Assembly (NCBI GenBank): GCA_963969365.1
Contig: OZ017751.1
Span: 2,542,001 to 2,606,000, forward strand
Length of the DNA stretch: 64,000 nucleotides
Origin: Asterochloris sp. CNOR1
Taxonomy: Eukaryota > Chlorophyta > Trebouxiophyceae > Trebouxiales > Trebouxiaceae
Reading direction: 5' to 3'
Part shown: positions 2,443 through 61,719 of the stretch, one piece after another
Numbering within the stretch: the stretch's first letter is position 1
Layout of the letters: every line of letters starts with the position of its first letter
Notes under the pieces: model-generated
Seen by the model: the letters and a program-made list of their open reading frames with translations, nothing else
What the model was told of the DNA's origin: nothing
Database searches by the model: none
Position numbers and translations under genes: made by a program

Positions 2443-4438
2443 ATGACTTTCACAAAGGCTTGCTGCGCACCTGGTGAGGGGCTTTTACGATGGCCTGAAT
2501 CCCCCAAAATATCCCCCCTCTTGCATGGGATGCATATGTACCATCTGTGAACTCCATATGTCAACTGATTGTGTTCAGGTGTGGAATGGGAGGGCACACC
2601 TCAGGGCAGAGTCAGGAAGATCGCAGCTGTTGATGGCTGGCTAAGCGTGTATCTGCAGGAGCCTAAGGGCCACCCATCCTCTGCAGTGGTACTGATCTCT
2701 GGTGCGCAGGCGTGCGCAGGGCGCCTTGGCTGCCTGGCTTTGCCAATGCCCTGCCCTGCAGCTGTCTGCCCGACACAGCAAGTGTGCTCCTACAGACGTC
2801 TTTGGTTATGAGAGCAAAAACCTCAGGATGCTGGCAGACGCCTATGCCAAGGAAGGTGGGGGGCATGGAGAAAATGCTCCATTGTTCACAAGTATATGCA
2901 TGATGTGCTGCAGGCCCCTGACACATGGGATTTTTCACATTTCTGCAGGGTACTTGGCAGTTGTCCCTGATCTGCTGAACAATGATCCTTTTTCCAAGTC
3001 AGGTGTTTGCTGCAGCCAGTGCCTCCCACTCTGTTGTCCATAAAGGGAGGTGCCTCTTGAGATCATCTGCTCTGCTGCACACCTCTCTGCAGTCACCTCC
3101 TCCCAAGTCTTCAAAGAGGACTCTAGGTGCTGACTACTGGACTGGCAGCCTCTTTGGCACATGTGCAGCAGCACCCACCCCTCCTGATGCATGTGCTGCA
3201 GGCATGACAGCATCTGTTGCCTGCATGACAACCTTTCTGGATGTCTCCAAAGCATCCTCTGGCGTATGCTGTTCTTGCAGCCTCGTCCCATGGGGGTTCA
3301 CGTGTTGACCTTGTGACCTGCATTCTTCGCAGATTACGGACAGGACAAGGAGAAACAGGAGAAGCTCTTTGCCTGGCTGAAGAAGCACCCTGTGAAAGAT
3401 GAGGGCGTCCACAAGCAGCTGGACTCGCTGTTTGAGGCGCTGCACAACCAGTACAGCATCAGCAAGCTCTTTGTGGAGGGCTTCTGCTGGGGGGGCAACT
3501 ACGCCTTGGAACTGGCTGCCACAGACAAAGTGAGGTTGTGCAGCTCACGCATGTTGCTGTCTGCATCCCGACGGGCCACATGTTCACAGCTGCTGGGGGG
3601 GGCAACTACGCCTCGCAACTGGCTGCTACCGACAAGGCGAGGCTGTGCAGCACACTCGATCGCTGTCTGCGGCCCTCATTCTCTCATGGACCACCGTCAC
3701 TCAGCTGCATGTGGCTCGATTTGACGACCTGGTCCCCCTTGAGTAGCTGCTGGAGGCCCCTCTCGTGGAGGCCATCCAGCAGTTTCATGCTTTCCTGCTT
3801 GCCTGCAGATCAATGCAGCAGTGGTGGTGCATGGTTCCTGAGTCAGGCCAGATGACGCCAGCAGGCAGCCCAAATCTTCTTGTCCGTCTGCAGATCGATG
3901 CCGCAGTGATCACACATGGGTCTCGGATGGAGCCTAGCCAGGTTGAGGCCATCAGGCAGCCTACTGCCTTTTTGTGGGCTGAGAGCGATGATCCAGAGTT
4001 GCTGAAGAAGGTCAGAGAGGTGAGTTGCCACCACCATTCATGGGAAGGCCGGTAGCAGTGGCCACAGTAGTTCGCAGCAAAGTCAGGCTGCAGCACTTTG
4101 ACCCCTGGTGCTACCCTGGTGCTGGATGCTGCTTGTGGTGCCTGCAGATCACAGAAAACAAGTCTCATGTGCCCAGCCTGGTCAAGATGTACCCTGGCAC
4201 CAAGCATGGCTTTGGGATCAGGGGCAGCTGGGACAACACAAAGCCCACAGATGACCCTTCAAACTCTGCGACCACTGCGGCAGCGCAGGAGGCTTTCGCA
4301 GATGCCTCCGACTTCTTCTCCCAGTGCAACTCTGGCTCCCCAAGTTGGGTCCAGAAAGGTCGCACTGCCGCCCTGGTGGCCGGAGTTGCCGCACTGGCCA
4401 TCTTTGCTGTGAAGGCGTTGCAGAGCGACAGGAAGTGA
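2443..4438 (+). CDS. Dienelactone hydrolase family protein with C-terminal membrane tail
   Basis: Seven exons: 2443-2473, 2579-2701, 2796-2855, 2949-3002, 3333-3529, 3894-4019, 4148-4438, summing to 882 nt (293 residues). The start MTFTKACCAPG is joined across intron 1 to VEWEGTPQG, the usual N-terminus of plant and fungal DLH proteins. ISDVFGYE and EGYLAVVPDLL follow. The nucleophile elbow EGFCWGGNYALE puts the catalytic Cys near residue 141; AESDD and TKHGF supply the likely Asp and His of the triad. DLH enzymes are alpha/beta hydrolases acting on dienelactones and related esters; the substrate here is unknown. Odd is the last part: a linker followed by AALVAGVAALAIFAVKAL and a basic end, which looks like a C-terminal membrane anchor. 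Intron 5 carries decayed copies of the flanking exon edges. Confidence 0.92.
3597..3652 (+). repeat. Pseudo-exon: copy of DLH exon 5 end plus donor
   Basis: This stretch repeats 3490-3545 (the GGNYALELAATDK end of exon 5 plus the first bases of the intron) with scattered substitutions and about 107 bp spacing. The donor GTGAGG of the real exon reads GCGAGG in the copy. It lies inside the intron, directly downstream of the functional junction. Confidence 0.85.
3803..3836 (+). repeat. Pseudo-exon: copy of DLH exon 6 start plus acceptor
   Basis: CTGCAG followed by ATCAATGCAGCAGTGG-like sequence repeats the real acceptor and exon start at 3888-3921 (ATCGATGCCGCAGTGA), about 85 bp upstream of it. 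Using it as an exon start would soon meet the TGA at about 3838. Confidence 0.8.
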
Positions 4439-5178
4439 CCACCCCGCTGGACCCTTCATGCAGTACACTGCATTGATGCACCACTCAAGTAGCCCACTCA
4501 AGTAAATTGCCGTGACACTAATGTCAGTGAATGATGAAAGTAAGTGGCCGCTGAAGCGCTTTGAGACTTGCAAAGTTGCTGGAGCAGTTGATAGGTGCTT
4601 TTCCCACATATGCATAACTTATACCATGCAAGACCCGAGGTTGCAGAACTGCTCAGGCCATTTGATTGCCAGCAACACTCCACCCTGATAGCTGGCCACC
4701 TTTGTTGCGTCAGTCCTGCTGTGCCACCTATGGTGTACCCTCTGCTGCTCGCAGCAACCCTTCACTTCTGCCACACGCCCGTTCTTAGCTGATGTCTACA
4801 CTGTGCCTCCTTCACCATGCATAGCTGCAGAACTCTTGAGGTAGGCATCTGAAGCCTGAATTGCTGGATGCATGGCACCTACCCTGACATGGCATAACAG
4901 GCTGCTGGGAGGCATGCAGCGGCCCCTCGGAGGGCAGAGCTTCATGACAGACAACCCTCAACATCATCTACATCCACCCACAACTGTCCATTGTTGCGCT
5001 TCAAGCTCGGGGTGCAGGTCGTTCTTGTAGGCTTCAGCCAGAGAGTTCGGTGTGCCAGCTGTGTCTGCAGCCTGGGCCCGAAGGGTGAGGACATGCTGCA
5101 AGACGCCAGGGTGCAGTGGGCATGAAAGAGATGCTCGACATCCAAGCGTGCTATTGCAGCATTTTATGCATGTAGATC
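4439..5178. other. Intergenic region between DLH gene and glutamate 5-kinase gene
   Basis: I see only short, uncorroborated ORFs here. It should hold the 3' UTR of the upstream gene and the promoter and 5' UTR of the next one, both on the plus strand. No clear TGTAA polyadenylation signal or other element was recognised. Confidence 0.5.
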
Positions 5179-8100
5179 ATGCAGGCGGTGGCCACCGCAG
5201 CAGGCAAATCCCAATGTGACATCGAAGACATGGGCCTGACAGTTGTGATCAAAGTTGGCACATCCAGTCTGATTCGGGCTGAGCACAACAGTCTAAGCCT
5301 GGGGAACCTGGCCAAGCTCTGTGAAGCCATCAGGGACCTGGAAAGCAGAGGTGATTGCATTTCCTGCTGCTAACTGTTAGTGACTAGAAAGGGCTCTCTT
5401 CTCTGATTGAGCAGCTGTATGTCCCCATGCAGGGCACCATGTGGTGGTGGTCTCCAGTGGTGCTGTAGGGGTTGGCTGCCTCAAGCTGAAGCTGCAGAAA
5501 AGACCCAAGGAACTTGCTGCACGCCAGGCCCTGGCTGCAGTGGGGCAGCTGCAGCTGATGCGATACTATGAGGACTTCCTGACAGCTCTGGGGCTGGTGA
5601 GCTTGACCATGGCTGCGTGCACTGCTGCAGCTGTATGCCCGCACTTGACAAGCAGGGGGCGTACCATGCAGTGCACTGTGCGGGCTCTCAGATGCCAGGT
5701 AGCATTTGACTTGGTGCTGTGCGGCAAGCTGCTGGTGACAGCTCATGTGCGGCTGGGCAAGCCTTGCTGATGTGAGAGGAATGTTGTGTGGGAGACATCT
5801 CAGCATGCAGCTGTCCCATCCTGGATGATGTCCATGACCTCCCGTACGCTGCCCTCTTCTTGCAGACCTGCGCCCAGGTGCTGCTGACTCTGGACAGTCT
5901 GGCAAGATCAGGGCTAGTACGTCAAGCAAGCTGCAGCTCCTTAACACTTCGTCTGTCTGCCCTCAGCCTTGATCAGCTGTAGACTGACGCTTAGGTGGCG
6001 CCACCCCTCATAGAGCACAGCTCCCAGCATGCCTCGCTGGTCACGCCTGATCCATGCCTGCAGACCTGCGCTCAGGTGCTGCTGACCCTGGACAACCTGG
6101 CTAATCGGGGCCAGTATCTGAATGCGCGGTCCACCTTCCAGAGTCTGCTGGCCATGGGGGCAGTGCCCATTGTGAACGAGAACGACACCGTGGCTGTTGA
6201 GGAGCTGCGTTTTGGTGACAACGATACCCTGTCTGCGCAGGCAAGGCGCTGCATTCGGTCAATGCGTTGCATTCGGTCAATTGATGGTGCTATTGGGCAA
6301 CCTTGGGCATGTGCTTGGCTTGATCCCATCATGTTTCCATGGCTGACCCTGGGGCCGGAGGGCTCAAAGGGTCCCCTGTTGTGGTGTCTAGCTGCAAGCA
6401 AGGGGCATGAGGATGCCTGCAAACGTAACAGGCTGTCACATCCTGTTCAGGAGCTGTGCTTGGCACATCACTCCCACAACTCTCTCCTGCTGGTGGCAGG
6501 TGGCTATGCAGGCAGGCTTTGAATGCTGCTCTGTCGGTCAGCACAGTATCCAGCGTGCCATCAAAGATTTCTTTGCTGGTGACAGGTGGCCACGCTGGTG
6601 GAGGCTGACTGGTTGTTCCTTCTGACTGATGTGGACTTCTTGTACACGGCAAATCCTGCCACCAACCCGGCAGCCGTGCCGATTCAGGAGGTGCACAACA
6701 TTGCAGACCTTCAGGTTAGTTGACCAGCCTGAAGGCGCTGGAAGGCAGGCTGCAGACATGCAGGCCAAGCTTCAGAAATCCACTGTTCCTCAAGCAGGAG
6801 TGCTGCCAGCCTGAGCCCACCGCCAGGCACGCATGAGGTCTCCCTGGTTGACTCGATCCCCGGCACACACACCACACTCCTCAAGGAAACGTCACGCTGC
6901 AGCCAGAAGGACCTGCTTGCTGTGCATACGCCCCTACAGACATGTGGGTGCTGATGGAAGCCAAATTGAGACAAGGGCTGCTCGCCCTGCACGCATGCCT
7001 GGAGCCATTGAGCATCAACCCTACATGGGAAACAAGGATGCCACCTTGACAGGCAATAGTGCTTTCTTGATGGCCCGCTGCAGGCTCGCTGCCAGCAGAC
7101 ACCCACCATGGCTGCTGCTGCAGGCGGACACAACCACACAGGGCACCCAGTGGGGAACGGGGGGCATGGCCACCAAGCTCACGGCTGCCCGCATCGCGAC
7201 TGCAGCAGGGTGCCACACGGTCATATGCAGGGCGTCACTGCCAGAGAACATTGTCCGAGTGCTGGATGGCCACCGCTTGGGTACCATTTTCTATCCACAC
7301 CCACAGGCCCTCAGGTGGGACAGTCAGCCGCAGTGCAGCGCCGCCCCCCTTATGCATTGCTGTTAGCCCTGCCTGCACCTGCCAGCCCTCAGGCGGAATT
7401 GGAACTGCACCAGGGGCCAGACTGGCAAGCATGCATAGACTAACAGCAGGCTGTGATTTGGCGTGCAGCCTGCTCAAGGACACGCTGCCATCATGGGCAC
7501 CGCCGTCACCCTCACTGGTGTTTTGCCGCAAATCAGCCTAAGTCAGTGGCTGTTGCTGCACCTCACAAGCATCAACAACCCCTTGAGCAGCTGCCCATGT
7601 CGGGCCCGTGAGAACATCTGGACCTTTGCAATGACCGCAGACGCTGTAGATGCTGTCACTTCCTCTGAAGGGCACCCAGTTGCTGGACGCTCAGCTTTCT
7701 GCAGCAGGGCAGGCTGCAGCAAGAGTCTCGGCACATATGCTAAATGGTCCACTTCACACATCTTGCAGGGGCCTCAAGCGCTGGATACTCTCAGTGCCGG
7801 TGAAGGGTGCCCTGCTGCCAGAATGTCAGGGGAGCCAGCCAGGGCTGCACAACCCCTGTTCTTCTGACACAGCACATCCACCACACATGTCTGCAGAAGC
7901 CGCAAGCACTACCTTGTGCACTAGCAGCGATAGCAGGAGGTGCCCGGCTGCAGGACGCTCAGCAAGCCAAGCTACAGCTTCTGTCCTGGCACAGGTGCTC
8001 AGGTCTCCACCGCACACGCCTGCAGGGGCCGCATGCGCTGGATGCTGTCAAAGCCGGTGAAGGGCGCCCTGTGGCTGGATGCCGTAACAGAATGCCCCTG

Positions 8101-9829
8101 GTGCGACTTGCACAAGTACAACAATGCCAGTGCACACTCCTGCAGGGGCCGCAAGCGCTGGATACTCTCTGTGCCGGTGAAGGGTGCCCTGCTGCTGGAC
8201 GCCGGCGCTGTGCGGGCAATTCGCGACCGTGCGAAGTCACTGTTCTCGGCCGGCATCGTGAAGGTGGTCGGCGACTTTGCTGCCCAGGACGCAGTGTCCC
8301 TGTGCGATGAGGACGGCGCAGAGTTTGGGCGGGGGCTGTGCAATTACAGGCATGACGAGGTTGCTCGGGTGCAGGTGGGCGTTGCTGGTGGGTGCAGGCT
8401 GCTGTGCTTGGCTCAGCCAAGTTTCTGCCTGTGTCATGAGTCAGAGAGGCAGCCAGAGCCCAGGTGGGCTCAGTGTCATTGTGCTGAATGTTTGTCTGAG
8501 AGGGCATGCAGCTCTGAGCATGGCAAGGTGGCAGCAGGCCAAATGGGTACTGTTGACATGGGCAGGGTGGATTGCCCTGCAATAGGCAGCCACAGCATGC
8601 GCTAAATGGTATGGGTCGGGCTGGGGCTCTGCAACAGCCCGGCATGACAAGGGCCCCGCTCACTTCTTCTGTCAGGCAGAGAGACCTGCTTCCCCTCCCG
8701 CAGCCCCTGTGTGGCACCTTTGGGGCCTGCAGCCTGCAGGTCTCCTCCAGCGGCACCCGCCTGCAGAACGATATGGCCAATCAGAGAAGCAGTCACATGC
8801 AGACTAGAGGCCCAGTCTGGCAGCACCTGCCTTGGGAAACCCATCTCGCGTTTCCATGAGATGCAACTGCCTGCTGACACTGGCTGAAGCAGGCCCCCAC
8901 CCAGAACACCTGAGTGCAGTGCAGCTCCAGCGTTCTTATATACATCCTGGGGGTCACTGTCTGCAAGGATTCTTGCGGCAGCACCTGCCTGCAAAACATA
9001 AAAAGCTGATTGCTGAGCTGTAGATTCAGCAGCGCTTTTGTGGGCCTCCTGGGGCACCCTGCCTCAGGCGGTGCAATTGCCCAAGATGCAGCAGCCTGCT
9101 GAGATCAAGACACAGAGGCAGGCGCTCCACTCACAGACGCTCTGCCTGCCAGATGGATCCAGCTGCGCCTTTGAGGACCTCTTGGGGCTCTTCCAGCAGC
9201 ACCCTCCCTATTAGGCGTTATGTTAGAGCTAGCTGTGTGCCAGTCCTGTCCAGCAGCGTCCCTGTGGACCTCTTAGGAGTCTACCTGCAGCACCCAACCT
9301 AAACCTTTGGCTGGCTTTACAGGGTCGCTCCAGCAGTGCCTTTATGGACCTCCTGGGCAGTTGGGGCTCGGAGGAAATCATGCACCGCAACAACATCAGC
9401 CTGACTGTGGTTAGGGAGCGCTCCTTTGACAACCTGCTGGCAGGGGACGACATTGTGCGGGACAGTCTTGAATCAGGCACCATGCTCAGCCCACGGCAGC
9501 TCAATAGCGCTGGCAACGGTCAGCAGCACCAGCTGCAAGTGGGGAGGATTGCAGTGGCTGGCGATGCTGCGGCTGCAGCTGCAGGGTGGCGCGCGCAGAC
9601 GCCTGAGAACCAGCCTCAGGTGGACATGCTGCCCAAAAAGCACTTCTTGGAGTGGTGTTGTGCAACATCTGGGTGCCCAAGGCTTTGGGGCGCTCTTGGG
9701 CTGCATGCGTGTGACAACCTTGCAGTGGCCTGGTGCCGAACCATCAAATACAGCTGGCCAGCTCTGCTCAAGCAGGCTCTCCATGGCAGTGGCAATAGAC
9801 GTCGCGCTTGGCCTCAAGCTTTTGCATGA
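5179..9829 (+). CDS. proB: Glutamate 5-kinase with PUA domain (stand-alone ProB type)
   Basis: Seven exons: 5179-5350, 5433-5596, 6064-6240, 6586-6714, 7124-7314, 8146-8374, 9323-9829. The amino acid kinase domain shows [37 protein letters not shown] with [23 protein letters not shown] and [15 protein letters not shown]. After that come [12 protein letters not shown] and a PUA-like part ending near EEIMHRNNI. The enzyme phosphorylates glutamate at the gamma position, the first step of proline synthesis. There is no glutamyl-phosphate reductase domain downstream, unlike land-plant P5CS, so ProA should be encoded elsewhere. The open frame continues about 140 codons past the usual end; that tail is low in recognisable features and may be wrong if a last intron was missed. 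Intron 3 starts GCAAGG (6241), a GC-AG intron. Introns 2, 5 and 6 contain decayed exon copies. Confidence 0.92.
5862..5916 (+). repeat. Pseudo-exon: copy of glutamate 5-kinase exon 3 start
   Basis: Acceptor plus the first about 48 nt of exon 3 ([10 protein letters not shown]...) are repeated here, some 196 bp upstream of the functional exon at 6064. The copy keeps an AG acceptor and the frame for about 16 codons, then diverges and lacks the rest of the exon. Confidence 0.88.
7635..8095 (+). repeat. Tandem array of decayed copies of glutamate 5-kinase exon 6 start
   Basis: Four degenerate copies of the acceptor and first about 65 nt of exon 6 begin near 7641, 7769, 7897 and 8026; the functional exon begins at 8146. 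Spacings are about 128, 128, 129 and 120 bp. The 7769 and 8026 copies are very similar to the functional one (GGGGCC..CAAGCGCTGGATACTC type), the other two are more eroded. All keep a CAG before the exon-like part. Confidence 0.9.
9020..9282 (+). repeat. Array of decayed copies of glutamate 5-kinase exon 7 start
   Basis: Three degenerate copies of the segment encoding [11 protein letters not shown] lie near 9025-9060, 9150-9190 and 9249-9281, upstream of the real exon start at 9323. Each retains a core close to TGGACCTCCTGGG. Spacings are roughly 133, 90 and 81 bp. Confidence 0.75.
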
Positions 9830-17800: not shown

Positions 17801-18723
17801 CAGCAGATGCAAGAGGAGGGTCATGAGGCGAGGTGACACACTGACTGCCCCAGGTGGTGTGTGTTGCCATTGCCTGCAGCTGAATGTGCACCGGGCACAG
17901 CAGGCTCCTGAGGTTGACACAGCTTGGCTGTATTACCTGATGCACCTAGAAAGGCCTTGTAGGGCATCATGAGGCTGACCTTGGCTTGCCTGGCAGAGTG
18001 AGGTGCCAGCGCACAGGAGATGGTATACCTTATGCAGCAGGGTTGGGAGGTTTTGAGATATGTTCCAGAGGAGGTGACGAGGCCATTCAGGGCCTGGCCT
18101 TCTTTGAGGAAAGCCTCTGCCTGGAGGTCATCAAATTCCGCAGCAGGCAGAGCAGGCTGCCCTGGAAATGACGGCATGGGCTGCCTTGAGTTGCTTTGAC
18201 TGGGGGCGGGTGAGCTGCAGGTGGATGAGGTATGCATGGGCCGCATGCATCTGTTGTCCTTCTGCTGCTTGTACACAGAAGCGCATGGCCTGCTCATGGA
18301 CTGTCATAGCAGCACATAGCAAATCAATAACCAGCTTGACTTGGGCAGCAGTGCTTCGTGCTGCAGCCTCCAAGAAACCCAGTGAGCTTGTCCCTGCACA
18401 GTGTACCAATGACGGCATGTTCTTCTGGAGTGCAGGCAGCCATCTTCGGGGGCGAGGCGGCCACTGCACAGGTGCAGTCAGACCCCTCACCGGCCCCGCC
18501 GGCACCGGCTGCCAGGCTGTCAGTTGCACTGGGGGACCTGGAGGAAGCACTCGATGGAGCCACTGTGGTGGACTTGCCAGAGGAGGATGGTGCGCCCCCG
18601 CCGGCCTCAGCAGCTGAGCCTTCAGCCGAGGCAACTGGCGCTGCAGCATCATCCATCAGCTGGCGCGAGCGCGCTGCCCAGATTCAGGCCAAACGCATGC
18701 AGGCTGCAACTGTTGGGGCCTGA
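14896..18723 (+). CDS. Arginine/serine-rich (RS domain) protein, probable splicing factor
   Basis: Eight exons: 14896-14967, 15034-15185, 15333-15440, 16074-16293, 16818-16991, 17246-17272, 17361-17564, 18436-18723; sum 1245 nt (414 residues). N-terminus MEEDKADHLYRALRVVDSG, then GLGFGLGSDEPS and YTAPYKLGDKF. Exons 3 and 4 encode a long RS domain (SRRRRSRSPGPRSSRR and similar). After it come VPEWKVLIEAYEDMTPAQRL, a nine-codon exon FIFDEAWAQ, EEPWTRYSAAG with an acidic ESDDEDKSDGE patch, AAIFGGEAATAQ and a Pro/Ala-rich tail. RS domains bind other SR proteins in spliceosomal speckles, so a role in pre-mRNA splicing is likely; the exact family is not recognised. Introns 3 (GCAAGC at 15441) and 6 (GCAGCC at 17273) use GC donors. 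The nine-codon exon and the start are the least certain parts. Confidence 0.78.
15507..15554 (+). other. G-rich tract in RS-gene intron 3 (possible G-quadruplex)
   Basis: About 48 bases consist almost only of G with single C, A or T interruptions, containing more than four runs of three or more G. It lies 66 bp downstream of a GC splice donor (15441) on the coding strand, so the nascent RNA could fold into a G-quadruplex. Confidence 0.7.
16618..16660 (+). repeat. Pseudo-exon: copy of RS-gene exon 5 start
   Basis: TTCTGCAG followed by CCGGAGCAGCAGAGC resembles the functional acceptor and start CAGCATGAGGAGCAGAGC at 16815-16832, about 190 bp downstream. The copy stays open for 28 codons but has no good donor, so it was not modelled as an exon. 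Confidence 0.65.
17634..17838 (+). repeat. Array of decayed copies of RS-gene exon 7 end plus donor
   Basis: The end of exon 7 (QGPVQQAQEEAHE plus GTGAGG, 17522-17570) recurs in degenerate form near 17636-17680, 17717-17766 and 17786-17837 within the following intron. The cores are forms of CAGGGGCCTGTGCAGCAGG. The last copy keeps GTCATGAGG next to a GCGAGG in place of the donor. Confidence 0.8.
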
Positions 18724-47700: not shown

Positions 47701-50700
47701 AGGCTAATGCCACCCTCCAGCAAGCCCTGCAGCGGCAGGATGAGGCAGCCAGGGCCTGGCGTACTGAGGCTGCACAGGCAGGGCAGCAGCAGCACACCAG
47801 GCTGGAAGCCCTACATGAGCAGCTGACTGCAGCCAACAGGGATCTACAGGCAGCTCATCAGTCTGAGCAAATGGCCAGGGGCGAGGTCAAGCAGCTGGCG
47901 GCTGCACTGGCTGCCACCCATGAGGAGCACCAGGTATGCATGAGCAGCTGGCAGCTGCACTAGCTGCTGCCAGGAGGAGCACCAGATATGCATGTTGTTA
48001 TGGGTACGGCTCATGGAGAGCAATCTGTATGCCTCCTGCCTTGGATGCTTCGGCTGAGGCTGCCAGGGGCAAGGAGGCCATCAACATATCTTACTTAACC
48101 TAGAGCTTGCCTCTGCTCACCCTAGACATGTTACTGTTAGTTGGCCCTGCTTGTCAGAACTGTCAGTTGGCCCTGCTTGTCACAACACCGTGGTGGAGGC
48201 GCCTGCTGCGCCTACTAATACAGCTTTGATGTCAAGCAGTGCAAGATCAGACCTGTACATGACTTAGTGCAGAAGGTCAAGAAGTGCAGGGCACTTTGTA
48301 GGGAAGCATGCACCTGTCAAGTTCAATCCTGTAGCTGTGCTGCAGAAGACCATGGAGTGCAAGCTAAAGTGGTATGAAGGGCACCTCAGGCGGGAGGAGG
48401 CTGCCAGGGAGGCTGCTGCAGACCAGCACCAGCAGCAGCTGCAGCAGGCTCAGGCTGCCAGGGATGAGCTGCAGAAGCAGCTGGCCCAGACTGAGGCGGA
48501 GTTCAGGCTGGCGTTGCAGGTAACAACAAATGGCAGCTAACAAAGCTTGGTGAGGTCTTCGGCTGAAGAGGATGACCCATGACATCCTCCCGGCAGGGAG
48601 AGTGCCGCATGCATGTGCTTGTTGGGGATGGTAGCACAGTTGATGTGCTGCCAGGGGGGTGCTGCAGGAGCGGCTAGCCCAGCCTGAGACCTACACTGGG
48701 CTGGGGCTGCACCGCGGCAAGCTGGGTGTGGAGATCTGTTGGCTGGAGGACTCACAGGCTGCAGATGGTGCATATCTGCTGAGCAGCAGCTGTCACTCTG
48801 CGCTTGCACCCCAACAGTGCTGCAGAGGGTGTCATATGTCAGGCCTATGTGGACCATGCACAGCCTGGGCTGCATGGTTCTAGACACGTCTGAGGAGCTG
48901 TGTCACCACAGGAGCTGATAGTGGACCAAGCGAGACCAAGCTGTCTGGTGTCTGCCCAGTCCTTCCCATGCCATGCAGGAGAGCAAGCGGCAAACGCACA
49001 ACCACCAGCATGAGGTGCAGCACCTGCAGGGCAACACTGCGGAGCTGCGGCAGACGCTCAAGGCTGCTGCCAGCAAGCACCAGGCAGGTGGATCACAGGC
49101 CTGCATATGAACAAGAGGAGGAGCTGCTGTCTGCCACAAAAACCAGCTGGGTGGAATACTGAGCGCATGGGTTGCATGTGGTGGGACATGCCCTTTCAAT
49201 GCATCTGCGGCGCACAGCAGGCCCCCGACACATGAACGAGCTGTCACATGTGTCAGTGCATGGCCAGCACGCCTGCAGCGGCTCACACAACCACTCAGAA
49301 GACCTGTAGGCAGCAACTTGGCCATCAGGCAGCCAAAGCATGCTTTAGACATCACATCTGAGCCGCAGAAGCAGGAAAGCCTGGCCTAGGAGCTGGCAGA
49401 AGCGTGCAGCCATGCTAGCCACAAGGATCAACTGAATGAAAACAATTACAACATACTGTGGCCTGCAGGAGCAGGAGATGATCTTCAGATTGAAGTACAA
49501 AGTGCAGCAGACTTCACACATCAACACAAACAGCAACCACAAGTGCTGAGGCCCTGCAGGGGGAGCAAAATGATCTGGAGTGCAGTGTGCAGCTGCAGTG
49601 CAATGGCAGCCAAGCAACCAGAGGTCTCATCCTGACAGCAGACTGGGGCCTGCAGGAACAGGAGAACTTGATTCGTGAGCTGACAGACGTGGTGCAGCGC
49701 CAGAAGGGCAGAGTTGCAGCCCTGCAGGCAGAGCGACTAGAGCTGCATTCCCAGCTGGCAGCCTACTGCCCAGCGGAGCAGGACAAGCTGCGGGGGGAGG
49801 TGGGCACACTACGTGAGCGAGTGGGGGAGATGGCCGCTCTCAAGGTGGGGTCACCCTTGACTCTGGAGGCTTTCTGTGGGTTTAGGCATCAAGGCACTTT
49901 GGCAGGCTGGGGCAGGTCCAGGGATGTCTGGCTGCATGGCGTGTTGCTGGTTGATTGGCAGTAGGGTCTGCCAGACTGTACACCCCACAAACCCTGCAGG
50001 AGTGCATTGGCTCAGTCTGTTTTAGCTGCTAGTCTTGGGCATTGTCAAAACATGCATATGCTGTGGCTGGTTGCCACCAGCAGGAGCTCACTGACGGCTG
50101 AGCAGCAGCAGACTGCCCTCCTGCAGCAGCAGCAGTCAGATGCATTGAGGGTCCTTGGGCAGGCAGGGACTAAGGTAACCGTTCACTGCCTGTACTGTGT
50201 TTGCACGATAACTGCACCTCAGCTGACACGGCAGCTGGACCACAGCTCAAGACCTGCGACCGGCATATGCTCATGCTTGCAGGAGCATCTCATGGCTGAG
50301 CAGCAGCGTAACGCCCAGCTGCAACAAGAGGTGCATGATCAGCAGGCCCGCCACCAGCAGGAGCTGCGGCAGGCGGCTGAGCAGGCGGAAGCAGCACAGA
50401 AGGCCATGCTGCAGCTGGAGCACGACTGCGAGGGGCGCTGCGCTGCGGCGGAGACTGCTGCCGGGAACTTGGAGGCCCAGGCTGACGAGCTGGAGCAGCA
50501 GCTGGAGGATGCAAGGGATGCTCTCAAGGTTGACATTACGCCACAGTCACCAACTCTGGGGGTTGCATGGATATCGTATGGGCACGGCCCTGCAGTTGCT
50601 TGAGGAAGGGCTGCTGCCTGTCGCCAGCAAGTTGTTGCTGTGCTTGTGGTTCCCGAAAGTTCGGATAACCCAGGCAATGCAAGCTTGACTCCATCTAGGT

Positions 50701-52866
50701 TACACTGTCATCAGTTGCTGCACAGGTCAAGGAGGTCATGGTGGATGATGCCCAGAGCACCATTGCCACTCTCAAGTCCCAGTTGGCAGCTTCCCAGGCA
50801 GAGGCAGCCAGCTGTGCCAAGAGCCTCGCGCAGGCTGAGGCCGACTGGCAGCAGCAGGAGCAGGACCTGATGCGCCAGCTGCAGAGCCTCAGGTCAGTGG
50901 CTGCCAGCAATGGTCTTCACATTGGCCATATGCGTGTGTGATGAGGCCCTTGTGGAGGTACCAGTGTTCCACAGCTCCATGACTGGTTCTCCAGTACTGT
51001 CATGCCCGTGCCCAGCCACTGAGGCGCTGCAACTTGGTCCAGCGACCTGCACTATGCTTCTGGTTTCCCTGCAGGCTGGAGGTGGAATCCCAAGAGGCCG
51101 CCCTGGAACAGCTTGAGCAATCAGCGCAGGAGGCTGCGCACAGGGGGCGGGAAGCTGAGCAGAGAGCCAAGGCCCTGCAAGACAGCCTGCAGGTGGGTCA
51201 CACTGCAGCAGTGTGCACGTCAGCGGTGCTGATGTGATGCACAAATGGTGCAGCCATCTTGAAAGGTCGCCAGCAGATGGGTCACCCCTCAAGAGCCATT
51301 CCTGGTTCATGACATGAGCATCAAACACGCCAGGATAGTGAACCTGCATGCAATGCATTGACGCACTGCCACTGCTGCTTGGTTACCCATGATGTGGAGG
51401 GTGCCACATTTGTGGCCCCGCACTACACACATTCAAGACGCACCTCCAAGTTACTGCAGTAGGAGGCTGGATGGAACGGACAAGATGTTCACTCTGAGAG
51501 AGGAAGAGTGGAAGCTCAACATTGCATCCCTTGCCCTCTGGAGGCCACCTGCCCAAGTCTGTGAGCAGCTGGCCCACGTCATGCTGCACACAGGCCTCAG
51601 CTCAGGAGCTGACACATGCAGTATGGCCCTGCTGCAGGAGTGAGACAACAGGCTCAGGGTTATTGCTATAGAATGCTGCCTGGTCAGAGCTCACTTGATG
51701 TTGGCACCTGCTCCTGCTGCAGGAAAGGTCCAGATGCTGGTGTATGGCATTGCGTTTCACAATACTGAGACTGAGATGAAGTGCAGCTCGAGTGCCTGGC
51801 CAGAGTCCAGCTTGAATGCAGCGCCTGCTCCTGTTGTAGGAAGGGACCACATTCTGGGGTACGCGAATGAGCTATTGATGTGAGCTGCAGATGCAGTGCT
51901 GCCTGCCATTGCTGCAGGAGAAGAAGAGGATGCTCGAGCAAATGAGCTACGGACTGAGTTCCGTGCACAGGCTGATATCGTCCATGTTGCACTTGTCGCA
52001 GGAAAAGGACAAGTTGCTCAAGTATGTGAGTGAGGAGGTCGATCGCGTGAAGGGGCTGTTTGAGCAGAAGGAGGTGCGCCTGACGGGGGAGCGGGACGCA
52101 GCCAAGCAGGCCGCCCAGCAGCTGGCCACAGAGCGGGGGCAGCTGGAGGGGAGGCTGAGGGAGCTGGAGCCGCAGCTGGTGGACCTGCCAGCACAGCTTG
52201 AGGTGCTGACAGCCCTGCTGCTTGGGCTGATCTGCACAGGGGCTGCATAAATGCCGCCCTACACAGCTTGACAGGCACATTTGTTGGCGTGGAGGAGGCC
52301 TGCTGGCCCAGCTGGGCCGGAGAACAGCTGCCTGAGCGATGCGCAGCTGTTGGCTGCCGAGGAGTCACAGGGGGAAGCAGTGCTGTGGACGCTGACTCAG
52401 GTCTTCCGACCTGTTGCATGCAGGCTGAGCGTGCCAGGGCTGGTGCTGCCGAGCGAAGCGAAGCTCATGCCAGGGCCAAGGCTGAAAAGGCCAGCGCTAG
52501 GGTGAAGCAGGTCAGCAATGCAGCAGGCAGGATCAAGGCATTGTCAGCCTGATCAAAGAGCTGCAGCCATAAGAGGTTCAAGCATGGCTGTCTGCACCTC
52601 AGACTGCTTTGCTGCAGAGGGTTGAATGGATGTGTTGGTCTGATGAGCAAGGGGGAGCTATGATCAGAATTGCCAGGTGTTGATGGACATTGCAGCCTGC
52701 CAGCAAGCTTGCCACTGGGCAATGCCCAGAACTCAAAGACCACTGCATCCTGCCGCAGGTGGAGGATGAGATGCGGGAGCTGCTGCACACCCTGGAGCGC
52801 CAGAAGGCAGCCTCTGCAGCAAAGATGAAGCAACTTGCAACGGTGCTGCAGGACATGCACTCCTGA
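44750..52866 (+). CDS. VFL1: VFL1/LRRCC1-like centriolar leucine-rich repeat coiled-coil protein
   Basis: Fifteen exons: 44750-45022, 45100-45968, 46336-46468, 46814-46909, 47170-47397, 47679-47933, 48346-48519, 48979-49083, 49656-49844, 50283-50528, 50726-50892, 51075-51192, 52002-52202, 52424-52510, 52759-52866; sum 3249 nt (1082 residues). The first about 200 residues are SDS22-type leucine-rich repeats (LTELNLSSNNLVSLQGLQSL, LVHLDVRHNFLQRLQDL) closed by a FLDG-type cap. A Gln/Ala-rich linker follows, then about 700 residues of coiled coil, ending VEDEMRELLHTLERQKAAS. This order and length match human LRRCC1 and Chlamydomonas VFL1, which mark one side of the centriole or basal body lumen and set flagellar number and orientation. 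Introns 2, 3 and 8 start GCAAGC, GCAAGG and GCAGGT. The donor at 47398 (GTCCGA) is weak. Other LRR coiled-coil proteins are possible. Confidence 0.8.
46567..46603 (+). repeat. Pseudo-exon: copy of VFL1-like exon 3 end plus GC donor
   Basis: GCTGCAGATGCGCGGGCAAG at 46580 repeats GCTGCAGATGCACAGGCAAG at 46455, about 125 bp upstream, including the GC-type donor GCAAG. Confidence 0.75.
47942..47995 (+). repeat. Direct duplicate of VFL1-like exon 6 end with mutated donor
   Basis: GCAGCTGGCAGCTGCACTAG...GAGGAGCACCAGATATGCATG immediately follows the functional GCAGCTGGCGGCTGCACTGG...GAGCACCAGGTATGCATG (47892-47942). In the copy the donor GT has become AT and the frame contains a stop (TAG at about 47962). 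Confidence 0.9.
49360..49610 (+). repeat. Array of three decayed copies of VFL1-like exon 9 start plus acceptor
   Basis: Copies begin at about 49369, 49469 and 49560, before the functional exon at 49656; steps are 100, 91 and 96 bp. The middle copy (CCTGCAGGAGCAGGAGATGA) is closest to the functional CCTGCAGGAACAGGAGAACT. Confidence 0.85.
50083..50172 (+). repeat. Pseudo-exon: copy of VFL1-like exon 10 start
   Basis: CAGGAGCTCACTGACGGCTGAGCAGCAGCA resembles the functional start CAGGAGCATCTCATGGCTGAGCAGCAGCG (50280), about 195 bp downstream. The copy has a TGA in the frame used by exon 10. Confidence 0.75.
51630..51962 (+). repeat. Array of four decayed copies of VFL1-like exon 13 start plus acceptor
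   Basis: Copies start near 51638, 51723, 51840 and 51918; the functional exon is taken as 52002. Steps are 85, 117, 78 and 84 bp. The 51918 copy (GAGAAGAAGAGGATGCTCGA) stays open and in frame into the functional GAAAAGGACAAGTTGCTCAA, so it could also serve as the exon start, adding 28 codons. Confidence 0.82.
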
Positions 52867-54544: not shown

Positions 54545-57500
54545 TCAAGGCAACTTTTTAGCCCACTGCAGAACGCGCCCTGATGTGCTGTGCCTCGCCA
54601 ATCCCCAATTGGCAAGCTGGGACTGTGCTGCCGTTATAACAGATTCAGAGGGCAGGACTGTTTCAGACAGGACAGCCTGCAGTCGGTCCACCAAAACATG
54701 TGCACTCTCTGCTTGCTGGGCTGAGGTCAACTCCTTCCCCACCAGCTGTAGGGCATGCTGTGATTTGGCCAGCTCTTCTGTGAGTGCCGTGGCTAGCTGA
54801 ACAGCGCCATCAAGTTGGTTTTGCAAGCTGCGGCCAGCTCTGGTGCCCAGCCCTGCAGCACACCAGTGCCCACTCAGCACAGCACAGCAAAATTCTGCCC
54901 CTTATACAAACTTTGCTGAGAATTGCCAGAGACAGGGCTTCTAGGGTTGGCAGAGGAAAGCATTGACAGGCACTTGATCCCTCAACAGAGCACCTCTTCT
55001 GGCTACAGCTGAGCTGCCCGGCGGCATCCATTGCCAGGCCCTGTGCCTGTCTGCTCCAGGCAGTGATCAAAACCCTGTGCTGGCGCATCAGCTGAGGAGG
55101 ACTAAGAAGTGAGCGGCATTGGCCAGGCTTGCCTGTCAGTGCTGCGCTCAGCAGCACGCCGCGCAGCACACTTGCTGTCAGCGGCACCTTGCTCCGCTCC
55201 ATTGTGCTAAGAGCACTATCAAACCTGTCCAGGTCTGCCATCCTGATGCTGGGCAGCCTGCAGGTGCATGGGAATCCAGTGCTCAGCTGGAGGTGGGAGC
55301 CTGCCTTTGCACATCAAGGGTGGTCAGCCGTGATGCTGGGGAGCCTCCCAAAATCTCCCCAAAACACTGAGTCATCAGGAGCCTGCAGGTAGACTAGCCC
55401 TGGCTCACCCGTGACTCTTGGCCAGCTGCAGCTGGGCATTGTCATTGGACAGCAGCAGGACCGGCCACTGCTTCTCATCTGCCCCCTGTGCTGCCTGCTT
55501 CCCATGCGCTGGTGCAGGGGCGCCCTCTGCAGGCACTCCTTCGACTGCCACATTTGGCGCTGCTGCAGATGCATCCCCATGCTGGGCAGGCAGTGGGAGC
55601 CGCTTGGCAGCCGCTGCCTGATGAGCCACTGGCCTGCTGGCCTGCTGGGCTGAGCCTGCCTGGGGCAGCGGGGCCGCTGCCTGCTGCCCTGTCCGGCTTG
55701 CAGCCCGCAGGGGTGGGGCTGACTGCGAGGCGGAGTCTGAGCCCAGGCCTGACTGCCCCTCGCTCTCTTGCTGCTGCTGCTGCTGCTGCAGGCCACCAGC
55801 TTGCTGGGGGCTGCTGCCTAGCGCCACCTGTGAGAAGTTATTCAGGCTCAGACCCTGCTGCTGCTGCAGGCTGGAGGCGCTTTGCAGCGCCTCCTGTGCA
55901 GCATGGGAGTCGGCTTCTGATGCAGCAGCAGATTCTGGCCCGAGGCAATTCTGCTGGATCTGGTTGGGCCCCCGCTCTGTAGAGACCTTGGCTGCACTGT
56001 TCACCTCTGCTCCTGCTTCTGCGTCTGTAGCCAGAGCTTTCTGCCGCCCTGCCGCGCTGGTGGCCATTGGTGTTTCGTCAGGCCGCTGAGATATCTGGCC
56101 ATGCGAAGCGCCGTGCTGTGTAGTGGAGGCCACAGATAGGTGGAGGTTGGCTGTGTTGCCCTCTGAGCCCTCATCGCCGATGATTCTGTCGCCACTGCCA
56201 CACGGACGTTGCTCAGCGCTTGCTGCAGCAGCAGCAGAGCCTGCCAGTGCAGGTGCCAGGCTGCCAGCCACCGCTGCAGCAGGCTGCTTGGGTGCATCGC
56301 CCGATTCTGCAACCTCTGGCCCTGTTTCTTGATGACCACACTCAAGGTGCCCCTGTCGGGTCTGTGCAGTTGGCTGGTCAGGCAGAGTTGCCTGCCCTGC
56401 ACCCAGCTCCTGCCCAGGCAAGGCAGCCTGCTGCAGGGACTCTGCTGGCAGGGTAGTTGGAGTACTCCTCCCTGCCCCCCGACCCTGCCCGCGCACTGCA
56501 GCATCCGGTGGGGACAGGGCAGTTGGCGCCTGCCCTACACCTGGCATGCCAGAGAGGCCAGCCTGCTGCTGCACGGCAGGTGGCGCCAGCACAGCGGCTT
56601 GCTGCATGGGCAAAGCAGGCGCAGCCTGGGGCTCCTGCCCTGCCGGCATATCCTTCTGGCCAGGGTCACAGGAGCGTTCCTGCACCTGTCCCAGCACCTG
56701 CTCGAGCGGCGCAGCCTGCTGGCCAGGTGCAGCAGGGGACTCCTGCCCTGCTCCCAACATCTCCTGCTGGAAGAAAAGCGCCACCTCCACAATCTTGGCG
56801 TCCACTCGCTGCCCCTTGTCCCGCAGGAGTGAGCTGCCACTGCCCGCCACTGCCGCATCGTGCTCCACAACAAGGCCCTCGCCCTCATGCGCCCCGAGAA
56901 CGGTCAGGATGTCCAACCCTGCAGGCAGTTGTGCAGGCTCAGCCATGCGTCGATGACAGTTGGGGTGTGGCATCCCCAGGCTGCGACTAGGCAGAGTCAG
57001 CCCTTGCCTCTCAACTGTGTAGCTGAACAGGTGCGGCATGGGTTCTGGACTGCAGATGGATGGCGAGCGGTGGCCTTGCTGCTGCTGAATGCCTGTCCAG
57101 TGACTCAGCCATACAGATGTCACGCAATCACTTCTGGGGCCACACAGGCAGCCACAAAATGTATTTCCTTCTGCCCTGAAATCAGTGAGCAGCAACATCC
57201 CAAACAACGGGATGCAGGCAAAGCCCTTGCGTGTGCAGCCCATCTGGTGGCCAGGCCCTAACCAGAAATCTGCAGCTCCACACCATCACATGACAGCAGG
57301 TGCATGACAAGCTGTAGGCACAGTCTGCCCTTCTGACGGCCAGGGTTTGCAATAGGACCAGCTGCCTTCATCTGGCCCCATGCAAGCAGGTGCGGGCAGC
57401 CCACCTGGCGGCCCCAAGGCGTCCAGGCCCCGCCCCAGGAACTTGCGGATGGCAGGCCCGGAGGCTGGCTCGTTCTTGAGCCCGTCCAGCTGCTTTGCCA

Positions 57501-60500
57501 CTGAATCAGTGATGATGATGAAGCACTGCTCCGTGGGGGGCAGGCAGCGCCCAAACAGGCCCAGCTGGGCCAGCCTCTGTATGCAGGTGAGAACATGTCA
57601 GCCTCTGCAGGCAAGGGGTACCAGTCTCTGCGTGCACTTCAAGTTACGTTTTTGTTTGAGCCTCTGCATGCAGACCGTATGAGGTCCAACCTGAGGCAGG
57701 CAACCTGTTGCAGCTTTGCCATGGCAGCAGTCTGCAACGGCCAGCTGAAGGGCTGAAGGCTGTGCTGTCAAGCTGTCAAAGTGGGTTGCACCTGGCACCA
57801 AAAGTGGGGGCCAGCGGAGGGCCTAATTCACTGCCTGGTGCTCGCTACAGCAGCAGACCAACTAATGCAATGAGAAGCACATCTGCTGCTTCAACATGGC
57901 ACAAAGGCATGCAAGACAATCACTCTGGCAGGAACTGTCACTGTCACAAGAAACTTTTGCTTCCCCCCACTGACCCGAGAGCATCACCTCCCACCTCAAG
58001 CCTCTCCAGCGTGAAGCTGGTCGGCAGAGCCATCCCATGCCTGGGCGCCAGCATGGCCATCAGTGCGCTGGTGTCTGGAAATAGCAGCAGGGGCCCCTGG
58101 CCCTCTGAAGGCGTGCTGGGCATCCCCGACACCGCTGCAGCCCCAGCGGTGGCACCCGGGGCTACGCCACCTGCTGTTAGCTGCTGCGGCCTGGCCGCAT
58201 GCGAGGCGGGCTGGCTGCCAGGTGTGGCTGGTGTGCTTGGCCTGGCAGGCTGCCTGGGGGGCGCCTGCCTGCCGGCTGGCAGTACCTGGTGCTGACTGCG
58301 CTGCCAGGTGCTGCGCACCTCCTTCAGGATGGGGGCCTCGGCTGGAGGCAACATCTGGCACTGCAGCCAGGGCAGCCGCACGTGGCACCTGCCCTTGGTG
58401 AACCTGCATGGCACAATACCAAGATGCATGTTCTATCCAGGGCCATAGCTTATGAGCGTGTCTGGGGCAGCAGTCTGTCATTTAGGGTCCACAAAGACAT
58501 CTCTGGGCACTATGGAAAATTGTCTGTGTGGCTGATGCAGGGCAGGTGGCTGGCACAGGTGGGCGGCAGCTCACAACAGCAACTTGGGCTCCCGCTGACC
58601 ATCAAGCATGGCACCCACATTGACTCACTTGATGTTTGCCTCGTGACCCCGTTGTCCAGCGGCAGCGCTTCTGGACTCTGGCACATCCACCGTCAAACCC
58701 CTCAGCGCACCCTCTCTCTCCAGCGCCTCGTGTAAAGGGCCCTGCAGGACATCGGCACACCTGGAGGTCTGAGATGGCATCGCTCCAGTGGGCAGTGCGC
58801 CAGGGGTGGCACAAATATGCCGTTGCAGCTAGTTCAAGCTTTGGCCCTTGAGCCCTGATGCATCACAGCAGTCTGTCATGCCAAAAAGCAAAATCTTACT
58901 ACATGGTGTGTGGTCTGCACAGGGACTGTGCAGCTGACAGTGCACTCCAGCTCACAAGTGGAATCAGGTTCCATTCCAGTCTGAGCCACAGGGGCCGCTG
59001 CCGGGTTGCTCCCTGGCTGGAGTCACTCTCTACTGAGCTTCCACCACCTCCAGCACCCTGTGGGCTGGCACTTGCTGGTGCTGCGCTTTGCGGCCTCCTG
59101 ACATCAAGAGGGCCTGCAGGTATGGCCTTGACGAGCGCTTGAGCACCTGCCAAGCCAATGCGGTTGTGTGACAGGTGCACCTGCAGGGGGCAGGGAGCCT
59201 TGTCAGCAAGCGTCTACCAGCCAGGTCTGCGTCTGCTTACTGGCCGCCAGCTGCTGCCCCAGCAGGCCTGCAGTTGGAGAGAAAGCCAGCAAACCTGTAT
59301 GGGCCACTTGTTCACATCTAATTGTGTAATGCCCTGCAGCCTGCCAGCGTTCAGGCAGCGTTCAGCACACTGCACGCACGGCTTTGGCTGGCATCTGCGT
59401 CCCTGCCAGGTCGATGCGATGGCTGGAACCCTGGGGCAGGGCAGAGTAGCTTGCAGCAAGCCTCTCACTGAGCCCGACCCAGTCTCTGCCTGTTGTCTGG
59501 CTGACAGCTTGTGCCTCATCAGTCACAAGAGCTGGGCCGCCCATTGCTGGTGCACTGCAGCCTCCCACACACACATAGGGCAGTAGCGTTTTGATATGTG
59601 GTGTGGCCAGCTGGCAACATGCTGAGGGCGGGGCTGGTATGGCTCACAAGAAGCAATGCAGAGGAACCTCAAGCAGCCAATGTGCATACGTCACAATGGG
59701 TGAGGCCCTGAAGACCACTGTGGGTTGCAGAGAATTCCTGCATATTGCCCAGTTGCAAGGACGCCCTTGAGCCCCCCATACGACATTTACCTGGGGTGCA
59801 GCATGAGGGATAGCGCCAATAACAATACAACATCATGCCAAAATGAGCTGTGCACAAAAGGGGTCAGTGGGCCCACCTCCACTTTGCCAGTATGCAACTC
59901 GGTGCCATGCTATGTCGGCAGTCATAAGTGTCCAACTACTGTACAGCACTTCACCCAAGCAATGCAGGGAAGTTCACCTGCACACAGGTGACCTGGCCGG
60001 TGATGCGCCGCTCCCTGTCTGTGACAGTGAGCCACCATGCTGCTGCAGCCACGGTGCCCTCACCTTGGCCAGTGTTGCCCTGGACTGCATCACCATGTGT
60101 GGCCCACCTCAGCAGGCTGGAGCAGCGTCAGCACCACCTACTGCAGAGCAAACATAATCACCCGGTCCCCAATGTTGCCCATACTGCCCCTCGTATGGCT
60201 CACCGCTGACATAATCTGGTGGTGCACTTTGTCATGCTCCAGGGTGGCCTTGCGCAGCATTGCAGTGCAGCACTCCTGCTTCCTGTGTGGGCCATAGCAG
60301 CATCATGTGTGTGAAGTGTGGCCCACCTCCAGCATGCCCGGGTGCAGCATCAGCGCAATGCACTGTGCTCCATCGTCTCCCAGCTGGTTCTCGAAGAGCC
60401 ACAGCTTGCGCACCCTCACGGTCTGCTGGGACCCTTGTGCCCACGCGGCCAACATGCGCAGGTCCTGGTCGATCAGCTGCATGCGTTCCAGGCGCAGGGA

Positions 60501-61719
60501 CACCTGCATGGATGAATGGGAACTTATTGGAGATGTACATCAGGCCAGCTTAAGCAGGAACTGCTCAGCTGCATGCTCTCCTTGCACATGGGCATCCTGC
60601 AGGCAGGGTAGGGGGATGCCAGAGTCAGGCATGGCTGCTGTGCTTTGGTCCGTCCACCGAGCTTCATGCTGCAAATTGAGCACTGCACCTTTTGTCAAGC
60701 AGACCTGGTGATCATATTGGGCTCGACAAAAATGGTGCAATGCGCTGTGCAGTGCTCCTGTGCGCCTGCTGAACTGGCCTTGCTGCCAAGCAGGCTGGCA
60801 CAGGAGCCTGAGTGGCACAAGCAAGCACCTCAGAGCCACATGAAATACATGCAGACACCACCAGCGAGCAGGTGAAATCTGCTCATCACCCACCTGAATT
60901 GGCTGCGCTGCAGGCTGCTGCACACCAGTCCCAGACGGCGGCAAGTCGGGAGTCTCGAAAGCCCTCTGCTGCTCACGCTGCTGCCGTGAGGCCCAGTCCA
61001 GCACAGCCATCAGAAAATCGGCACTGAAGGGCTTCCCCCGTGCAGGGCCGACCTGCAGGGATGCCAAGTAGCATGACACAGTGCCCAACACCTGTCTGGC
61101 AGGGTGCACGATTGCAAGCACTGGTGCATACATACAGCTAAGCACCGCTGGCACAACACAGGGCTGAAGGAGGTGCTGCCAATTCATGCCAGACCCCTGG
61201 CGTGAACAGATTTCCCTGTCCTGTTCAAGGTGGCGCTGGCTGCTGCATGCACGTCATCCAGACACCAGGTTCATTGAAAAGTGGCCATCTGTGCACATCA
61301 AGTGTCCTTATGGTCTGCAGCATGCAGCAAGTCAGCACATGGCAGCAACCTTGTAAATGCCTGGCTCCTTGTCGTGCTCCATAGCAATGGCCTGCTTCAG
61401 GTCTTCAGGCAGCTGCATGGTGCCCTGTAGCTCCTTGTAGGCAGATGGCAGCACTTGTACAGATGCAAGCGGAGGCTCGCGGCCAGGGGCCCTTCCCCTT
61501 GGCATGCCTCTTGCGGGACCTCTTCCCCTGGGTGCTCCTGCAGGAATGCACAGGTGTTGAAGGGTCAAAGGGCCTTGATCCGACATCCTGCTCGGTGACC
61601 TGAGCTGTACCTCTGGCATCAGGCAGTCCTCTGCCCTGACCTGCAGATGAGTGTTCATCTTGTCCTCTGCCAAGAACTCTGCCGCGGCCCCTGACTGGCC
61701 CTCTTCCTCTAGCCCTCAT
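54545..61719 (-). CDS. Multidomain RGG / leucine-rich repeat / PIN nuclease-like / coiled-coil protein
   Basis: Firm exons: 61719-61641, 61537-61350, 61052-60894, 60503-60327, 59180 to about 58955, 58403-57995, 57576-57405, 56918-55409, 55257-55133, 54852-54545; further LRR exons between 60327 and 58403 are not resolved. The start is rich in RG and RGR (MRARGRGPVRGRGRVLGRG). RNI-type repeats follow (VRKLWLFENQLGDDGAQCIA, LSHNRIGLAGAQALVKAI). The PIN_4-like domain has LLLFPDTSALMAML, FIIITDSVAKQLDGLKN, ILTVLGAHEGEGLVVEHD and RVDAKIVEVALFFQ, with Asp residues at the expected metal-binding places. About 380 Gln/Ala/Ser-rich residues follow, then a coiled coil (ALTEELAKSQHALQLVGKEL). RGG and PIN together suggest an RNA-binding endoribonuclease; this is inference. 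The donor at 55132 is GCAAGC. I know no family with this exact architecture. Confidence 0.75.
55312..55345 (-). repeat. Pseudo-exon: copy of PIN-gene penultimate exon start
   Basis: On the minus strand GGCTCCCCAGCATCACGGCT near 55345-55326 resembles GGCTGCCCAGCATCAGGATG at the functional exon start (55257). It lies about 80 bp upstream in the direction of transcription. Confidence 0.7.
60090..60125 (-). repeat. Pseudo-exon: copy of PIN-gene exon 4 end plus donor
   Basis: Minus-strand CTGCTGAGGTGGGCCACACA resembles the functional exon 4 end and donor ATGCTGGAGGTGGGCCACAC at about 60333-60314. It lies about 220 bp further into the intron region. Confidence 0.65.
60551..60605 (-). repeat. Pseudo-exon: copy of PIN-gene exon 4 start plus acceptor
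   Basis: After CTGCAG, the minus strand reads GATGCCCATGTGCAAGGAGA then GCATGCAGCTGAGCAG. This parallels the functional exon start GTGTCCCTGCGCCTGGAAC then GCATGCAGCTGATCGACCAG at 60503, about 100 bp further on. Confidence 0.75.

Follow-up and report, generated by a model that had tools for sequence, protein, structure and literature searches.

Introns in the 64,000-nucleotide stretch of Asterochloris sp. CNOR1 considered here (contig OZ017751.1, or C6, positions 2542001-2606000; hereafter the window) contain decayed copies of the exon edges that flank them. The genome assembly comprises 56.4 Mb in 21 contigs, and GC content across 2-kb steps of the window lies between 54 and 63%. Genome size, GC content and intron density are similar to those of Asterochloris glomerata, for which 56 Mb, a GC content of 56-62% over 98% of the genome and 9 introns per gene are published (PMC6652019). 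The analysed DNA amounted to 304 kb, made up of the window, 200 kb upstream of it and 20 kb each of contigs C1 and C2. Gene models were predicted ab initio with a self-trained hidden Markov gene finder, which converged at 61 genes and 642 introns (median intron 221 nt, median exon 117 nt) and learned a very strong acceptor, CTGCAG|G, together with the donor CAG|GTGAGC. Two of these 61 models have an internal stop or a broken frame, and both were retained. A few short predicted exons are probably pseudo-exon copies themselves; exons were therefore required to be at least 45 nt long, and query exons at least 60 nt. The resulting conservative set holds 62 genes and 578 introns, and 576 of the introns, from genes with at least three exons, were tested.

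Four of five proteins from window models matched Pfam families (DLH with MAPEG; AA_kinase with PUA; GH9; PDEase_I), and Rfam and tRNA scans of the window gave no matches. The single model at 1031-4438 that carries both MAPEG and DLH may be two adjacent genes fused. Judged by coordinates, the copy-bearing junctions at 3529 (DLH) and 21484 (GH9) fall within the domain-coding span. The exon-edge copies of the window are given below, where d is the offset between real edge and copy.

3484..3564 (+): real donor edge, comprising the last 46 nt of exon 3333-3529, the donor and 35 nt of intron; identity with 3590-3670 is 83% (d=106); the junction lies within the DLH Pfam domain.
3590..3670 (+): decayed copy of that exon end, donor and intron start in the following intron; score 91, intron-side homology p=0.005.
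3803..3961 (+): acceptor edge of exon 3894-4019 (3888-3961) and its upstream copy (3803-3870), d=85; 72% over 74 nt, score 32.
5861..5919 (+): copy of acceptor and exon start upstream of the real acceptor 6063/6064 (real edge 6059-6116), d=198; 86% over 59 nt, score 76.
7627..8204 (+): ladder of acceptor-edge copies (7627-7690, 7749-7818, 8012-8084) ahead of exon 8146-8374, seen in alignments.
17500..18017 (+): exon 17361-17564 has its donor edge copied at 17717-17761 and 17776-17833, and 17500-17529 recurs at 17988-18017; score 56.
21455..21709 (-): acceptor edge of exon 21311-21484 in the GH9 gene, with copies at 21560-21603 and 21680-21709 in steps of 105; 84%, 87% and 92% among the three.
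24172..24291 (-): acceptor edge 24172-24211 and copy 24252-24291, d=80; 78% over 40 nt, score 32.
33162..33513 (+): acceptor edge at 33453 with copies at 33162-33231 and 33303-33353; 78% over 73 and 51 nt, score 52.
33638..34057 (+): donor edge at 33679 with copies at 33752-33788 (intron part) and 33951-34057; 75-89%, intron-side homology p=0.005.
34404..34504 (+): donor edge at 34429 and copy 34473-34504, d=69; 91% over 32 nt, score 52.
47890..47994 (+): the donor edge of exon 47679-47933 occurs twice, head to tail, at a period of 52, and the copy has AT in place of the donor's GT; 86% in Tandem Repeats Finder (TRF), score 69.
60327..60601 (-): acceptor edge of exon 60327-60503 and a decayed copy at about 60565-60601, d=93; score 32 over 36 nt.

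All the loci named by an earlier reading of the letters alone (the initial annotation) were recovered: the pairs 3484-3564/3590-3670 and 6059-6116/5861-5919, the ladder before 8146, and the junctions at 17564, 21484, 33453, 34429, 47933 and 60503. The exon behind that ladder leads into PUA in a gene resembling glutamate 5-kinase (domains AA_kinase and PUA by Pfam), and the ladder's offsets of 120, 378, 258 and 394 fit nested events, in which a 120-bp duplication would have come first and then been included in a larger one. The intron that holds the duplication at 47890-47994 also contains a 26-bp tandem repeat with 92% matches (48133-48186).

Across the tested introns, 49 of 1,008 exon edges recur at score 30 within the intron that they border, compared with 0.85 expected from mismatched introns. 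Donor edges contribute 26 of 501 and acceptor edges 23 of 507, with 0.40 and 0.45 expected, respectively, from length-matched introns of other genes. The copies are spread over 47 of the 576 introns, 24 of 57 genes and 8 of the 11 gene models in the window. A ninth window gene, with its junction at 11147, reaches score 29, and the original count of at least nine genes is thus fair. The presence of exon-edge copies in introns, well above chance, is confirmed.

Controls at the 99.9% null level are low, yet some are not empty. Exon-interior queries matched in 0 of 304 and about 3 of 320 cases (two of these with scores of at least 44), intron-interior queries in about 5 of 437, 8 of 437 and 9 of 360, and reverse-complemented edges in about 3 of 507 and 0 of 501, with about 0.3 expected in each of the exon-interior and reverse-complement tests. 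Reverse-complemented edges show no excess at the 95% level, and there is little or no excess of inverted copies. That so few exon interiors recur in introns is to be expected, as tandem duplication can bring exon sequence into an intron only by way of a junction. Edge queries match 2-5 times more often than intron-interior queries. The initial annotation places donor-side copies downstream of the real junction and acceptor-side copies upstream of it; this is forced by geometry, since the search was confined to the intron.

The copies belong to a wider population of near-tandem direct repeats. A BLAST self-comparison of 264 kb including the window gave 119 pairs with an offset of at most 800 bp and at least 30 bits, whereas three versions with locally shuffled dinucleotides gave 1, 2 and 4; a cut-off of 32 bits left 97 real pairs and 0, 0 and 0 shuffled ones. 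The initial interpretation of the copies as decayed tandem duplications is supported. Offsets of the BLAST pairs peak at 75-125 bp. BLAST seems to lose pairs close to the main diagonal, and a tile-based scan was added for this reason. At score 33 it returned 134 pairs in C6 (5 and 4 in two shuffles), 4 in C1 and 8 in C2, or 146 in total, with offsets mainly of 60-140 bp and below 60 bp in 18 of the 146. TRF reports 6 arrays in the window, and 21 of 22 window self-matches at E 0.01 lie within 400 bp of one another. Duplication units are mostly 60-150 bp long. The steps of 70-140 bp proposed for the copies are found in 25 of the 47 copy-bearing introns, so that the word "mostly" was generous (interquartile range 85-153); the larger offsets partly reflect ladders of several steps.

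Many edge alignments end 4-8 nt inside the intron, a feature that could point to a different origin, namely short templated insertions, perhaps made in the course of break repair, that would carry an exon edge and about 5 nt of splice site into the intron and involve no copying of whole tandem units. The low number of well-kept edges with detectable intron-side homology (4 of 18) also speaks for such edge-only copying. However, a similarly truncated profile is obtained from simulated old tandem duplications. Ungapped identity 6-15 nt into the intron is 0.38 for all 56 edge matches and 0.42 for the 31 spanning ones, compared with 0.38-0.44 in simulations at K 0.25-0.3 and 0.27 in the null; at 15-25 nt the corresponding values are 0.27 and 0.30, 0.31-0.34 and 0.24. 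The identity profiles over exon and intron together resemble simulations at the same K. Intron-side homology reaches p<0.05 in 14 of 52 tested edge matches (pooled p=1.8e-7; four others were too short for the test), close to the 21% simulated at age 0.3, and 27 of the 146 tile-scan pairs align across at least 75% of their offset. Edge-only copying is therefore improbable as the general origin of the copies, although a minority of them may be edge-only or may have had the intron part deleted.

Duplications also occur away from junctions, and the window contains the following examples.

16107..16265 (+): in-frame tandem duplication of 87 bp, or 29 codons, within one exon; 75% over 72 nt.
55777..56770 (-): in-frame tandem pairs in one long exon, with d=78 (55777), d=108-111 (56616) and d=63 (56644); a weaker pair at 56384, d=289, is out of frame.
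51677..51861 (unstranded): intron-only pair 51677-51744 / 51793-51861, d=116, an example free of any junction; 75% over 69 nt.

In the sampled 304 kb, an intergenic repeat complex extends from about L003:8988 to L004:177, with offsets of 138, 283, 378 and 692 bp and 75-85% identity. Among exon-internal pairs the offset is divisible by three in 7 of 9 (p=0.008), and in 7 of 7 at offsets of at most 111, compared with 17 of 54 intron-only pairs and 24 of 76 edge or other pairs. This indicates that junctions are not the sole targets, and that exon duplications occur and survive if they are in frame. When duplication places are clustered, the 78 clusters divide into 53 at exon edges, 19 in introns only, 4 exon-exon and 2 intergenic.

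On the surface, the 53 edge clusters against 19 intron-only ones and the stronger response of edge queries suggest that duplications favour exon-intron boundaries, as the initial annotation proposed in stating that they keep nucleating there. R-loops, nucleosome edges, or the CTGCAG|G and CAG|GTGAGC motifs promoting slippage or breaks could in principle produce such a preference. The same excess follows from uniform placement if decay is asymmetric. In a simulation, tandem duplications of 60-160 bp were placed uniformly on the real sequence, and of 6,000 placements 1,929 crossed exactly one junction, 2,075 fell in introns only, 868 within exons and 672 in intergenic DNA, while 456 spanned multiple boundaries. 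In the model, exon-breaking duplications are purged, and decay is one-fold on the exon side and two-fold in introns. Since one copy is protected as coding sequence, junction-crossing duplications stay readable longer than intron-only ones: at 0.25-0.3 substitutions per site 47-73% of the former and 8-29% of the latter are detected in simulation (ratios 2.3-5.7), and half-detection falls at about 0.3 and about 0.22 substitutions per site, respectively. The expected ratio of edge to intron-only clusters consequently runs from 1.35 with all ages equal to 2.5 for ages of at least 0.2 substitutions per site, and higher for older events; the observed ratio is 2.8. At ages of at most 0.15 the expected ratio is just 0.9-1.0, so the argument requires the events to be old; their scores point that way.

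When counts and scores were fitted together, with the age distribution left free, the junction factors were 0.61, 0.46, 0.85, 0.58 and 0.61 in five settings that vary exon constraint and indel rate, with penalised log-likelihood differences (2 delta lnL) of 1.90, 4.08, 0.27, 2.24 and 1.81. The fit drops within-exon and multi-junction units, keeps one best pair per cluster and applies a smoothness penalty. No setting calls for enrichment at junctions, as the factor lies at 0.46-0.85 and never exceeds 1, and in-frame exon duplications and intron-only duplications exist besides. Preferential nucleation at junctions is thus rejected as unnecessary to explain the edge excess, and we consider a true preference for boundaries unlikely.

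The explanation we favour, and regard as probable, is that short tandem duplications arise without preference for splice junctions, are filtered by selection and are revealed by one-sided decay. Head-to-tail duplications with units mostly of 60-150 bp would arise across genes; units internal to introns would be tolerated, and units internal to exons would survive only in frame. A unit crossing a single junction would be tolerated because the outermost junction, still attached to the remaining exon, preserves the frame. Both the filter of selection and the use of this outer junction are steps that we infer. Later on, the exon copy would be held by selection while the intron copy decays alone, and intron parts would decay on both sides. 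Among old events, precisely those that cross a junction would then stay visible longest and appear specific to exon edges. Ladders and longer introns would result where duplications repeat and nest. The proposed contribution to intron growth is supported by length, as the median intron with a copy measures 420 nt, compared with 233 nt without one, and 285 nt once the nearest step is subtracted. Taken this way, the introns display a known type of mutation on a large and legible scale, and no new splice-site mechanism.

Several observations weigh against this explanation. Head-to-tail adjacency is something we infer for the 119 of 146 pairs that align over less than 75% of their offset. Among the 18 edges with an exon identity of at least 0.85, just the 4 mentioned above show intron-side homology at p<0.05, where simulations at K 0.1-0.2 give 55-80%. 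The placement fit over-predicts the top score class (3.0-5.1 edge clusters expected, 1 seen), and intergenic clusters are few (2 seen, 3.9-5.5 expected). Finally, the splice sites within the copies do not follow neutral decay: GT is still present in 8 of 26 donor copies (0.51-0.63 simulated at K 0.2-0.3), and AG in 18 of 23 acceptor copies (0.54-0.59 simulated at the same K). The difference between GT and AG retention is significant (Fisher p=0.0014), if based on small numbers, and it has the same direction at a cut-off of score 36, where GT is kept in 38% of 13 and AG in 73% of 15.

A second donor would compete with the real one, while an AG lying upstream of the branch point would be passed over; such a contrast could possibly explain the loss of GT and the retention of AG. 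An alternative is that the copies are functional alternative or decoy exons under selection. In its favour, AG retention in acceptor copies exceeds the simulated range, and 61% of these copies keep a splice score of at least 5, compared with 22-32% in simulations. Donor copies, however, have mostly lost GT, the numbers are small, and the identity of the copies is about what one-sided decay predicts. We therefore hold a function of the copies to be very improbable.

The age structure of the duplications is likewise uneven. Among the pairs covered over at least 75% of their offset, identity is 71-83% in 11 of those with offsets of at least 60 and 90% or above in one, which lies in an exon; for offsets below 60, 9 of 15 reach 90% or above. 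The single exonic pair is a perfect 69-bp (23-codon) tandem duplication in a coding exon at about L018, 4031-4170, and is the sole pair in the 304 kb with an offset of at least 60 and at least 90% identity across most of its unit. Outside exons, recent long-unit (at least 60 bp) duplications are nearly absent from the 304 kb, and recent short-unit ones (below 55 bp) are present. By arithmetic, constant birth would give about 7 young long units outside exons, and 0 are seen; the fitted duplication rates also climb steeply with age. This scarcity could reflect a wave that has passed, a change in unit size or copies that were already diverged at birth. One combined scenario, which we offer tentatively and think less probable than its negation, is that a past wave of 60-150 bp tandem duplications has nearly ended, and that selection has since removed decoy donors and left decoy acceptors. 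If true, the introns would form a dated archive of a mutation process and a natural test of how the 5' and 3' splice sites tolerate competitors.

Tandem duplication is itself a listed mechanism of intron gain, with 188 events in one review (PMC3443670). Like the gains described by Rogers and Hellsten, the copies reported here involve head-to-tail duplication with splice-site motifs (PMC3443670), and one intron fits that scheme in register. The 89-nt intron at L024:8412-8500 (minus strand) has donor and acceptor contexts that show in-register homology across about 60 columns (score 54), and reading through it gives an in-frame stop. By its sequence it is a candidate for Rogers-type intron gain by tandem duplication. 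It is the only in-register intron among 576 at a score of at least 32 (null 0 of 2,789), with introns below 60 nt set aside because their high scores reflect trivial overlap of the two contexts. A second candidate, the 89-nt intron at junction 10049 (d=89), is weak (score 30) and lies at a doubtful gene-model end. Rogers-type gain was rejected as a general cause, given that one intron in 576 is in register. As a class, the edge copies fall outside this type of gain, and with all 49 of them, unlike in the published gains, the original intron stays in place (PMC3443670).

Introners, which are present in algae, or other dispersed repeats would be a further conceivable source of the copies. Introners create introns in many eukaryotes (PMC9860276). 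Three of three tested units match only themselves, with no second match in 56 Mb in a search that skips very common words and covered these three units, and the window self-matches lie almost entirely near one another, as noted above. Dispersed repeats were rejected on the basis of these three units and the self-matches, and an introner origin is considered extremely improbable.

Other known systems share parts of the pattern. In potato RdRp, a recent, RNA-supported new intron arose via a tandem duplication spanning an intron-exon boundary (PMC4974935). Both cases involve duplication across a junction that was already present, with splice signals included; a new intron resulted there, whereas here old copies known from DNA alone lie within existing introns, 47 of 576. 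In Drosophila, coding sequence duplicated with proto-splice sites is described in connection with intron sliding or tandem duplication (PMC2891723); new intron positions result in that case, compared with edge ladders in old introns here. The broader precedent is that of Gao and Lynch, who in 2009 reportedly found internal gene duplication to be ubiquitous, with frequent short duplications within genes. Compared with that work, decayed intronic remains and an age structure are documented in the present case. Among the titles listed by the literature search, none describes systematic exon-edge copies in introns, which is a weak negative.

These results carry a warning, in that repeat enrichment at exon edges is on its own no evidence for a process targeted to splice sites. 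They also provide a tool: a search of each intron with the edges of its own exons picks up old tandem duplications that escape ordinary repeat finders, as the few TRF arrays in the window illustrate, and serves as a simple gauge of the share of tandem duplication in intron length. By hand arithmetic, the directly visible events, 72 clusters each of about 100 bp, occupy roughly 5% of the approximately 140 kb of intron DNA, and the uniform fit up to age 0.34 suggests that duplications account for about 13%. Ultimately, the interest of these introns lies in the archive of duplications that they hold, in its age structure, and in the difference between its donor and acceptor copies.

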